From assembly GCA_003164675.1 (NCBI GenBank), contig PLTX01000117.1, positions 1 to 64,000 on the forward strand: 64,000 nt of DNA. Direction: 5' to 3'. Positions within the stretch are counted from its first letter, which is position 1, and every line of letters starts with the position of its first letter. This document shows, one piece after another, positions 23,521-63,932 of the stretch. The notes beneath the pieces are model-generated. The model was given only the letters and a program-made list of their open reading frames with translations. It made no database searches and was not told the origin of the DNA. This DNA comes from Verrucomicrobiota bacterium. Lineage in GTDB: Bacteria; Verrucomicrobiota; Verrucomicrobiia; Palsa-1439. The translations under genes were made by a program, and so were the position numbers.

Positions 23521-24810
23521 GTGAACGATTTACTGCCATCGCGGAAGACCCAAATCCCCGGCCCGAAGTCGCGCGCGCTTTCCCGCCAGCTTCGTCGTTA
23601 CGAATCCCGCAACATCACGTTCGTGTCCGGCCACTGGCCGATATTCTGGCAGCGCGCGTCGGGCGCGAACGTGTGGGACGTCGATGGCAATCGCTATATC
23701 GATCTCACGGCGGCATTCGGCGTCGCCAGCGTGGGACACAACAACGCGCGCGTCGTGGCCGCGCTCAAAGCGCAAGCGGGGAAGCTCGTGCACGCGATGG
23801 GCGACGTGCATCCGAACGAGCTGAAACTGCAACTGGCGCGGGAGTTGGTGGGGTTGACATTTAGGCGTTGGTGTAGCCGCGCTTCTGCGAAGCGCGGGTC
23901 GGCGCTTCATAGAAGCGCCGCTACAACATCCCCTGCCCGTGTCATCTTTGCCAATTCGGGCGCGGAAGCAGTGGAAGTGGCGCTCAAGACGGCGGTGATC
24001 CACACCAAGCGTCCCGGGGTCATTGCGTTCGAGGGCGCGTACCACGGGCTTACCTACGGCGCGCTGGATACGACGTGGCGGGCGCACTTCCGTTCGCCTT
24101 TCTCGGAGCAACTGGGCCACTTCACGGCGCATGTGCCGTTCGGTCGTGTGCCCAATGTGGCGAACATCGGGGATTTTGGCGCGGTTATCGTCGAACCGAT
24201 CCAGGGTCGCGGTGGCATCGTGGTTCCTCCGGATGATTTTCTGCCGAAGCTGCGCCAGTTCTGCGACGACCATGGCCTCGTGCTGATCGTTGACGAAATC
24301 TATTCCGGTTTCTGTCGCACAGGACGGTGGTTTGCGTGCGAACATTGGGGCGTGACACCTGACGTGGTGTGCGTTGGGAAGGCGATGGCGGGCGGATTTC
24401 CGATTTCGGCATGTATCGGCCGCGCGGAGGTGATGGACAGTTGGCCGGAATCGCAGGGCGAGGCGATTCACACGAGCACGTTTCTGGGCAACCCGCTCGG
24501 CTGCGCCGCGGCGCTCGCATCGATCCGCGAGATGAAACGGATGAAGTTGGACAAGCGCAGCCAGGAACTCGGCAAGTGGCTCGCAACGCGGCTGGCGAAG
24601 ATCGGCAAGGTTCGCGGCAAAGGTCTGATGCTTGGCTTGGAAGTGGGCAATGCTGTCCCTCTTGTCGAGAAACTGTTGCAAGGCGGTATCCTCGTCCTGC
24701 CCGAAGGCGATCACAACGAAATCCTCGGCCTCACCCCTCCCCTCGTGATTACGAAACGGCAATTGGAGTATTGCGTCGCAGAACTGAACGAGCTGCTTTC
24801 GCCGCGTTGA
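23521..24810 (+). CDS. Class-III pyridoxal-phosphate-dependent aminotransferase carrying an in-frame palindromic insertion
   Basis: VWDVDGNRYIDLTAAFGVASVGH, VIFANSGAEAVEVALKTA, LIVDEIYSGFCRTGRWFACEHWGVTPDVVCVGKAMAGGFP, HTSTFLGNPLGCAAAL. Confidence 0.92.
   Translation: MNDLLPSRKTQIPGPKSRALSRQLRRYESRNITFVSGHWPIFWQRASGANVWDVDGNRYIDLTAAFGVASVGHNNARVVAALKAQAGKLVHAMGDVHPNELKLQLARELVGLTFRRWCSRASAKRGSALHRSAATTSPARVIFANSGAEAVEVALKTAVIHTKRPGVIAFEGAYHGLTYGALDTTWRAHFRSPFSEQLGHFTAHVPFGRVPNVANIGDFGAVIVEPIQGRGGIVVPPDDFLPKLRQFCDDHGLVLIVDEIYSGFCRTGRWFACEHWGVTPDVVCVGKAMAGGFPISACIGRAEVMDSWPESQGEAIHTSTFLGNPLGCAAALASIREMKRMKLDKRSQELGKWLATRLAKIGKVRGKGLMLGLEVGNAVPLVEKLLQGGILVLPEGDHNEILGLTPPLVITKRQLEYCVAELNELLSPR
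23872..23925. repeat. 54-bp double-hairpin element with TGTAGC/GCTACA ends inside the aminotransferase CDS
   Basis: TGTAGC-CGCGCTTC tgc GAAGCGCG-ggtc-GGCGCTTC ata GAAGCGCC-GCTACA, length divisible by 3. Confidence 0.9.
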
Positions 24811-24819
24811 CAGGTCAAC

Positions 24820-26013
24820 ATGGATCAAGCTGCTCTCGATCTTCAGCAACGCATCCTCGCGTTGATTGCGCGCGGGATGGCGCAGGCGACGACGGATGAG
24901 GAATTCGATCGACTCGCGCGCGAGGTGTTTGCGTTTCAATACGAGCGATGCGCGCCGTACCGGGCTTACTGCGAACGGTTGAAATTGACCCCGGAAACCG
25001 TTGCGCACTGGAAGCAGATACCCGCGGTGCCGACGAGCGCGTTCAAGGACTTTGCGCTGACGTGTTTTCCGGTCGAGGAGGCGGTCGCGGAGTTTCACAC
25101 GAGCGGTACGACGCGGGAGAAGGCCGGGAAACATTATTTGTGGACCTTGGAATTGTATGAGGCGGCGATACGTCCGAATTTCGCGGAGTATTTGTTGCGA
25201 GACTTGGAAGGCAACAGTCGGGACGCACTATCTACTGCGGAACGGACAACAACCGGCGGTCATAGACCGCCGCTACAGAAGCGACAATACAGTCGATTGC
25301 CGATGATGGTGCTGATGTCATCGCCACGAGAGGTGCCGCATTCGTCGCTCTCGCACATGATGGGGGTCGTCGCTCGCGAGTTTGGCGCGCAAGACAGCGA
25401 GTTCTATGTGGAAGACGGAGTGCTGCGCGTCGAGCGCGTGGTGCGGGACTTGTCCGAGGCGCAAGTGGCGCATCGACCGGTCTTCCTGCTCGGGACCGCG
25501 TTTGCTTTTGTGCATCTGCTCGACCATCTGGCACGGCAGGGTTTGAGAGTTGAGATGGCCGAAGGCAGTCGGGTGATGGAGACGGGCGGGTTCAAAGGAC
25601 GGTCGCGCGAGATGCCGAAGGCGGAATTGTACGGGCAGATCGAGCGGCTCATCGGCATCCCGAAGACGCGTATCGTCAACGAATACGGCATGACCGAGTT
25701 GAGCACGCAGTTCTACGACGGAAGCCTGCGAATGGGTCGCCAGACCGATGACAAGGCGGCTCCGCCATGGGCGCGGGTGGTCATTGTCGACCCGAACACT
25801 GGCAGGGAGGCAGATGAGAACGGACGTGGTCTCGTCCGTGTCTATGATTTGGCGAACCTATGGAGTATCCTATGTATACAGACGGAAGATTTGGGGGTCG
25901 CACACGTCGCCGGCTCGGCATCGGGCACGAATTCATTTGAAGTCCTTGGGCGGGCGGCCGGCGCGGAAGTGCGCGGGTGCTCGTTGACGGCGGAAGATTT
26001 ACGAGTGGAATGA
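24820..26013 (+). CDS. Acyl-protein synthetase, LuxE family
   Basis: AVPTSAFKDFALTCFPVEEAVAEFHTSGTTREKAGKHY, VNEYGMTELSTQFYDGSL. Confidence 0.85.
   Translation: MDQAALDLQQRILALIARGMAQATTDEEFDRLAREVFAFQYERCAPYRAYCERLKLTPETVAHWKQIPAVPTSAFKDFALTCFPVEEAVAEFHTSGTTREKAGKHYLWTLELYEAAIRPNFAEYLLRDLEGNSRDALSTAERTTTGGHRPPLQKRQYSRLPMMVLMSSPREVPHSSLSHMMGVVAREFGAQDSEFYVEDGVLRVERVVRDLSEAQVAHRPVFLLGTAFAFVHLLDHLARQGLRVEMAEGSRVMETGGFKGRSREMPKAELYGQIERLIGIPKTRIVNEYGMTELSTQFYDGSLRMGRQTDDKAAPPWARVVIVDPNTGREADENGRGLVRVYDLANLWSILCIQTEDLGVAHVAGSASGTNSFEVLGRAAGAEVRGCSLTAEDLRVE
25255..25277. repeat. Hairpin GGCGGTC-ATA-GACCGCC-GCTACA inside the luxE-like CDS
   Basis: Same ATA loop and GCTACA tail as 23901-23925 but a different stem. 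Confidence 0.85.
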
Positions 26014-28152: not shown

Positions 28153-28163
28153 TGTATCAGTTC

Positions 28164-28188
28164 GGCGCTTCACAGAAGTGCCGCTACA
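28164..28188. repeat. Hairpin GGCGCTTC-ACA-GAAGTGCC-GCTACA
   Basis: Near copy of 23901-23925, in the gap between the pseudopilin and beta-solenoid genes. Confidence 0.8.
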
Positions 28189-33524: not shown

Positions 33525-33928
33525 GCGTGACCTTTTACATTGAACACCTCTCTTTGTCAACCCTGTAACAGGGCGTCCAATCTCTGTAACAGCACGAGAA
33601 TATCGGCTATTCTCAACATCCGTTTAACGTCAAAGCCGACCCTCTCAACGACGGGAAGCGGCACGGTTCCGATGGCGGCGAACAGGCGGGACGCCCGTTC
33701 AACCAGGAACGGCGGCAGCCGGGCCGGTTGCCCTACGGGGCGTCATGTCAGGGGACGCGGCCTGCGGAGGTGGGCGGGGCGGTCTTTGCGACCTGGGCAC
33801 GACTTGGTCGCGTCTTCGCTGCGCTTCGGCTCCGGCGAGAGAGCCCTACCAACGACGAAGAAATACGACACGGCTCACCGGGAGGTTCGCCCTCCAAAGA
33901 CGGTTGGGATTGGTGATGGATGGGAAGC

Positions 33929-34218: not shown

Positions 34219-34531
34219 TTGACATGGCATCTATTTATGATATAAGGTATGCACGATGAAGTATGGACAGGCACGATGGGAACACGAAGGGCGCGAAGCA
34301 CGGCGACAGAGCGCCGTGGCTACACGGGGAAGCGGCGCGTTGGGCCAGCGCGCCCTACCGCGGTGGTTGCGCCCAAGACCAGGGGCTGCGCGAAAACACG
34401 CTTTCTACCAAACGAAGCCAATGTTTTTGGGCGCTTGTGAATTTCGAACCAATTGTAGTACAGATGGTTAGGAGTCTGACTGTGCCATTTTGTCACATGG
34501 CTTCGTTTTGCAAAAATTGGCTTCGTTTTGG
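34219..34531 (+). repeat. Composite repeat copy A: promoter-like box, hairpins, 160-bp conserved core with inverted AAACGAAGCCAAT ends
   Basis: 34371-34530 aligns without gaps to the reverse complement of 63441-63600 (hand count about 128/160 identical). Confidence 0.85.
34299..34324. repeat. Hairpin CACGGCG-ACAGAG-CGCCGTG-GCTACA
   Basis: Exact 26-bp inverted match to 63907-63932. Confidence 0.85.
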
Positions 34532-34602
34532 GGGTGTCACTCGTGTCTGTTGATGAGAAATGGGGGTTTTTGAGATGATGAACGATGGTTTGTCGGGAGT
34601 GC

Positions 34603-34625
34603 GCACCCTGAAGGGTGCGGCTACA
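34603..34625. repeat. Hairpin GCACCC-TGAA-GGGTGC-G-GCTACA
   Basis: Perfect 6-bp stem with the GCTACA tail shared by the family. Confidence 0.7.
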
Positions 34626-45628: not shown

Positions 45629-45661
45629 GTAGGACAGGATGCCTGTCGTGTAGGCATCCTG
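45629..45661. repeat. Palindromic element with two mutually exclusive stems
   Basis: GACAGG-ATG-CCTGTC (45633-45647) overlaps CAGGATGCC (45635-45643) / GGCATCCTG (45653-45661); begins with GTAG. Confidence 0.7.
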
Positions 45662-48644: not shown

Positions 48645-48690
48645 AAAAAAAGGACAGAGAGGGTGCGTTACACCCTCTCTGTCTTTTTAA
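48645..48690. terminator. Bidirectional Rho-independent terminator
   Basis: AAAAAAA-GGACAGAGAGGGTG-CGTTA-CACCCTCTCTGTC-TTTTT; perfect 13-bp stem 48653-48683 flanked by A- and T-tracts. Confidence 0.9.
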
Positions 48691-63439: not shown

Positions 63440-63780
63440 CCCAAACGAAGCCATTTCCGGCAAAACGAAGCCAAGTGACAAAATGGCACACTCGGACACC
63501 TAAGCCACTGCCAACCAATTGGTTCTACAATCACAAGCACCCCGGGAAATTGGCTTCGTTTGGTAAAAAGCGTGTTTTCGCGCAACCCTCGTTCTTGGGT
63601 AGGGACGCGCTGCCGCGCGTCCGTTGAAAGGTTGCCCTGCTATCTGATGGCCGTCTCCCCCTTTGGAGTGCGGCGACTCGTAGCCGCTTTGCCGTTGTAG
63701 CAGAGCCCCCATCCCAATCTCGCATCTCCTATCCATTTTCACTATGCCCTATCGTATATCACCCCGCTGTGGCATGTCAA
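63440..63780 (-). repeat. Composite repeat copy B (reverse orientation of 34219-34531)
   Basis: 63441-63600 reverse complement aligns without gaps to 34371-34530; TTGACATG box at 63780. Confidence 0.85.
63603..63622. repeat. Perfect hairpin GGACGCGC-TGCC-GCGCGTCC preceded by GTAG
   Basis: 8-bp perfect stem; same stem as 33929-33948. Confidence 0.8.
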
Positions 63781-63878
63781 ATCGAATCTTCACCCCTGCA
63801 CCGGGGATGCCGCTACCCCCCCTGTTTACCCTGAGCGACGTCGAAGGGTAGCCGCGGGCGCCGACCGCGGTCCGCTTT

Positions 63879-63932
63879 GTAGGGCAAGCGCTCCGCTTGC
63901 CGTAGTTGTAGCCACGGCGCTCTGTCGCCGTG
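63879..63932. repeat. Two adjacent hairpins: GTAGGGCAAGCG-CTC-CGCTTGCC and TGTAGC-CACGGCG-CTCTGT-CGCCGTG
   Basis: Perfect 8-bp and 7-bp stems; the second is the exact reverse complement of 34299-34324. Confidence 0.85.

Follow-up and report, generated by a model that had tools for sequence, protein, structure and literature searches.

By its published definition a REP consists of a GT(A/G)G head and, after it, a palindrome whose base composition varies (PMC3686654). Di Nocera, De Gregorio and Rocco described in 2013 a GTAG-tagged REP super-family with complementary stem subfamilies and intragenic copies, and found GTAG repeats to be enriched in the verrucomicrobium O. terrae (PMC3733652). The same survey reported that mixed dimers are preferred, with 'no obvious explanation', and already suggested that such dimers might escape clearance as long hairpins (PMC3733652). 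Assays of group-3 RAYTs have found that swapping the stem has a mild effect on cleavage, while mismatches are damaging and loop positions matter (PMC8266576).

The DNA analysed here, which we call the window, is a stretch of 64,000 nucleotides on contig C72 of G000, a draft genome of 3.6 Mb that is approximately 90% complete. A sequence-only reading of the window had picked out hairpins with constant GTAG/CTAC ends and freely varying stems, and had taken them to be unlike ordinary REP families. That judgement falls away, because a variable palindrome after a constant head is what defines a REP (PMC3686654) and complementary stem subfamilies have been reported before (PMC3733652). In the hairpins a palindrome comes after an unpaired 5' GT(A/G)G head, and they are new families of the known REP kind in an uncultured lineage of the Verrucomicrobiota.

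GTAG hairpins of the window

Sorting by loop and stem gave the following lineages:

F1: GTAG-CCGCGAAT-ctc
F2: GTAGc-CACGGCG-ctctgt
F3: GGCAAGCG-ctc
F3b: GG(A/C)..., loop gcc
F4: CGGCGGTC-tat and CGGCGCTTC-tat
F5: GCCGCGTG-ccct
F9: CGCACCC-ttca

The hairpins of the window are given below with their strand; G009 and G010 are sister genomes of the same genus.

23873-23897, plus: GTAG-CCGCGCTTC-tgc-GAAGCGCGG, first half of a head-to-head REP pair, within an aminotransferase gene
23900-23924, minus: GTAG-CGGCGCTTC-tat-GAAGCGCCG, second half of the 23873-23924 pair with the other stem, within the same gene
25254-25276, minus: F4 REP GTAG-CGGCGGTC-tat-GACCGCCG, recurring in G000, G009 and G010 and flanking a RAYT in G009
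28163-28187, minus: F4-type REP GTAG-CGGCACTTC-tgt-GAAGCGCCG, one mismatched pair
33714-33736, minus: degenerate F3-like REP GTAG-GGCAACCG-gcc-CGGCTGCC, matched by the family pattern only
34299-34323, minus: F2 REP GTAGc-CACGGCG-ctctgt-CGCCGTG, F2 pattern
34334-34358, minus: F3b-like REP GTAG-GGCGCGCTG-gcc-CAACGCGCC, one non-Watson-Crick pair
34602-34624, minus: F9 REP GTAGc-CGCACCC-ttca-GGGTGCG, relatives in G009
45629-45661, plus: doubtful member GTAGga-CAGGATGCCT-gtcgtgt-AGGCATCCTG, layout differs, a single distant look-alike (L027:17546)
63599-63622, plus: F3b-like REP GTAG-GGACGCGC-tgcc-GCGCGTCC, perfect 8 bp stem, of the lineage met around the RAYT on contig C34 of G000
63848-63870, plus: F1-frame REP GTAG-CCGCG-GGC-gcc-GAC-CGCGG, a subtype with an inner G.A mismatch that recurs in G000 and G010
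63879-63901, plus: F3 REP GTAG-GGCAAGCG-ctc-CGCTTGCC, stem recurring in the genome
63908-63932, plus: F2 REP GTAGc-CACGGCG-ctctgt-CGCCGTG, the commonest F2 stem, common to G009 and G010

Every hairpin named by the sequence-only reading is present, at its position or a few bases from it; 45629-45661 fits the layout poorly. Two of them, 28163-28187 and 34334-34358, each hold one non-Watson-Crick pair, and two further hairpins (23873-23897 and 63848-63870) had been passed over. Separately, the window contains a perfect 13-bp hairpin without GTAG at 48653-48683 (GACAGAGAGGGTG, loop CGTTA), which is A-rich before and T-rich after and resembles a bidirectional terminator.

Enrichment and genomic location

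The window has nine perfect hairpins with the GTAG/CTAC edge, as against 0-2 in five dinucleotide shuffles, so that the excess over shuffled sequence on which the sequence-only reading had staked the pattern is there. A scan of 1.44 Mb of the genome gave 85 GTAG-edged perfect hairpins against 10 (84 once one overlap between sequence stretches is removed), and GTAG was the most frequent tetranucleotide beside hairpins in that sequence. Across 2.0 Mb of G000 hairpins scoring at least 7 start at 115 of 6,937 GTAG words (1.7%); for 23 control words the proportion is 0.17-0.88%, typically about 0.35%, which places GTAG at approximately five times the typical value. Perfect 7 bp stems overall are in slight excess only (587 against 464).

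The family patterns match 107 copies in 2.0 Mb. Although 87% of this sequence is predicted to be coding and 13% lies outside, 67 of the 107 copies fall outside predicted genes; these counts are approximate, the gene prediction being crude and having picked the wrong strand at 23530-25134. The minus-strand open reading frame predicted there has no Pfam match and was rejected as the gene in favour of the plus-strand aminotransferase frame, which is real. The elements are thus repeated in the genome and lie mostly outside genes.

That plus-strand frame (23521-24810, class-III aminotransferase, PF00202, E 3e-98) contains the pair at 23873-23924, which adds 17 in-frame residues to the protein. Orthologues in the congeners G009 and G010 are without the 17 residues, and in G001, a genome of another genus, a different REP pair of F5 type occupies that aminotransferase site, likewise in frame (L319). 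Since different REP families occupy one site, the sequences suggest two independent insertions into what would be a tolerant loop, a case in two genera of mobile DNA turned into protein sequence.

Stem lineages and covariation

The stems do not vary completely, as had been supposed, for a recurring stem is found in 64 of 100 perfect GTAG hairpins. Around five control words recurring stems made up only 2-6 copies among 34-52 hairpins each. Clustering into lineages, which the sequence-only reading had weighed against its own idea, is largely what we see: stems recur, the lineages are few and sister species have stem types in common. Its other observation, that pairing is kept while the stem varies, holds within lineages. 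There GTAG is constant, the loop is mostly so (that of F1 also varies), and some stem pairs change on both arms.

For F1 we used the frame GTAG-CCGCG-N9-CGCGG, in which only GTAG-CCGCG and CGCGG are fixed, and obtained 74 copies from three genomes. The three free pairs are fully paired in 59 of these (80%), compared with 11% when the right arms are shuffled, and none of 5,000 arm shuffles reaches the observed pairing. The fully paired triplets are of nine kinds: AAA, AAG, AAT, ATT, CTC, CTT, GTT, TAC and TTT. For F2 public genomes were scanned with GTAG and the loop core (loop CTCTGT) fixed. Among the matches listed, all five free positions are paired in 50 of 126 where about 0.2 would be expected, with at least 10 paired stem types, nearly all of them from Verrucomicrobiota and Kiritimatiellota or from unnamed bins. 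The paired matches are sharply set apart from unpaired chance matches, and most F2-frame matches outside the two phyla were discarded as chance, their arms being unpaired. Because shuffling keeps the relatedness of the copies, we give more weight to the number of distinct stem types than to the shuffle count. Incompletely matched stems do occur: F1, F2 and F3b include G-T pairs and changes confined to one arm.

RAYT genes and mobility

The sequence-only reading had called for a RAYT elsewhere in the genome, and G000 has such genes flanked by GTAG hairpins. Two score 96.2 and 92.5 bits against an NCBIfam REP_Tyr_transpos cut-off of 80 and are similar in sequence to the solved TnpA-REP structure 4er8. 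The RAYT on C5 has three identical F1 REPs around it; that on C34 is flanked by two inverted F3b REPs that share the GCC loop but not the stem. Two RAYTs of the sister genome G009 also have REPs on their flanks, F4 REPs in one case and F2 REPs of several stem types in the other. No RAYT beside F2, F4, F5 or F9 REPs was found in G000, which is approximately 90% complete and of which 2.0 of 3.6 Mb were read base by base. Across the order GTAG REPs occur at 13 of the 18 RAYT loci examined, and at 8 of those 13 compensated stem variants with like loops lie within one cassette; one RAYT appears to live with several stems.

A third RAYT-like gene of G000 (C33:7485-7856, L334; 97.9 bits, above the NCBIfam cut-off) was found with NF047646 and missed by PF01797 alone; there are no clear GTAG hairpins within 350 bases of it. 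The 330 aa Y1 protein at C34:9786 was rejected as a RAYT, as its score stays under the RAYT cut-off and REPs are absent from its surroundings. Y1 (IS200-like) proteins of 320-330 aa under that cut-off are encoded at L004:9198-10187, with similar ones in G001, G002, G004, G009 and G010.

Alignment of G009 with G000 and G010 revealed places where REP pairs or single REPs of G009 face a short stretch or nothing in the sister; the lengths in bases, G009 first, are 93 and 22, 104 and 0, 70 and 0, 109 and 7, and 85 and 13. At L270, L272 and L273 an inverted doublet in G009 faces a near-empty sister site, as for a REPIN that inserts as a unit. In the single case of a REP at an orthologous place in G010 and G000 the stem is identical and the loop differs.

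Head-to-head pairs

Sequence from three congeners, where known REPs had guided part of the choice of regions, holds 27 head-to-head pairs whose stems are perfect; in 26 of them the two stems differ. In folding computed with DNA parameters, two separate hairpins form in 11 of 20 native pairs, whereas making the halves identical leads to a single cross-paired structure in 39 of 40 cases. The mean gain over two separate hairpins is 15.7-15.8 kcal/mol with identical halves against 3.4 for native pairs. By computed folding, then, stem mixing would weaken the folding of a pair into one long palindrome. When partners are shuffled within families the chance of such mixing is about 0.04 for F1, about 0.04 for F4, 0.16 for F2 and 0.67 for a GTGG family; the product, 1.5e-4, overstates independence, the copies being related. 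Identical-stem pairs beside RAYTs occur in other genera, and the mixing rule is not general. The GTGG-headed pairs themselves (L011:57-122 and L097:4665-4730; stem CGCAGGC or CACAGGC, loop GTCCCT) are predicted to form a single long hairpin, and they too have two stem types per pair.

We infer that mixed pairing reflects selection, and the bias bears on the question about REP dimers that was openly stated in the 2013 survey. A stronger idea, which we consider possible but rather unlikely, is that the avoidance of long palindromes actively drives stem divergence, perhaps with template switching supplying the matched arm changes in one event, so that stems would diversify around a fixed tag and loop. 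If true, it would answer why mixed dimers are preferred.

Discussion

The best explanation, to which we give a probability of about 0.9, is that the hairpins are GTAG-tagged REPs spread by RAYTs that read the tag, the loop and the pairing, with coexisting lineages each tied to its own RAYT. It draws on enrichment, lineages, covariation, RAYT flanking, empty sites and mixed pairs, all seen directly. The REPs would be non-autonomous and spread by RAYT (TnpA-REP) single-strand transposases, whose recognition would rest on three features: a GTAG left unpaired, the loop, and correct pairing of the stem. An element would then still work after one stem pair is exchanged for another. Several REP lineages coexist, each presumably with a RAYT of its own, and some of these RAYTs are found only in sister species. 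Each compensated stem type would be copied whole, frequently within a head-to-head pair that combines two different stems and is presumably less able to form one long palindrome. The recognition rules proposed for these RAYTs are modelled on published group-3 RAYTs. That stems change yet stay paired is most likely due to a transposase for which tag, loop and pairing count more than the identity of the stem bases.

The sequence-only reading had offered two causes for the pattern. Selection on structure is supported by the covariation within lineages. The other, a copying mechanism that regenerates the second arm from the first, is not needed, since group-3 RAYTs tolerate stem swaps and are impaired by mismatches (PMC8266576); in the sole orthologous REP the stem is identical and the loop changed. 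In its fuller form, template switching during replication would rewrite one arm from the other and so produce matched changes in one event. Template switching is known to mend and to create stems (PMC8794818), and no one-arm intermediate was seen among the 38 F1 copies rich in A/T that the free frame gives in G000. Intermediates exist elsewhere, however, as the G-T pairs and one-arm changes of F1, F2 and F3b, and stem types recur and are shared across species, so most stem differences are inherited. We therefore regard arm-copying as improbable.

Less probable still is that the hairpins are maintained as RNA structures, either terminators or mRNA stabilisers, with the transposase incidental. 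The surplus of copies outside predicted genes (67 of 107 in sequence 87% predicted coding) and the G-T pairs would suit such a role, but the constant GTAG is unpaired and is no part of a terminator, the families are met repeatedly beside RAYT genes, pairs are inserted whole in a single species and one pair lies within coding sequence. Chance palindromes in a G+C-rich genome, for which only the near-background number of all perfect 7 bp stems (587 against 464) could speak, are already refuted by the GTAG hairpin counts (85 against 10), the GTAG-word scan and the recurrence of stems (64 of 100, compared with about one tenth for control words).

With GTAG-tagged REPs spread by RAYTs as the preferred reading, a RAYT/REP system of several coexisting families is now placed in an uncultured order of the Verrucomicrobiota. 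Its natural series of stem variants, some of them within single RAYT cassettes, can be used to test what a RAYT reads in its substrate.

Among known systems, the families resemble the GTAG super-family, beside whose 24 published consensus sequences they were set by description rather than by letters (PMC3733652). In both, stems of 6-13 bp with short loops follow an unpaired GTAG end, the stems form complementary subfamilies, many head-to-head dimers join two kinds, some copies are intragenic and RAYT genes are associated with the repeats; unlike that super-family, the hosts here belong to an uncultured order and each family has tens of copies. Group-3 RAYT/TnpA-REP systems (PMC8266576) share the GTAG, the short perfect stem, the short loop and a transposase gene flanked by its own REPs, as at C5 and C34 of G000, although the RAYTs here, identified by sequence, may belong to another group. 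As in REPINs and BIMEs (PMC3116915, PMC3686654), an inverted REP pair with a short spacer inserts as a unit; in contrast to these, the halves of a pair within this genus nearly always differ in stem.
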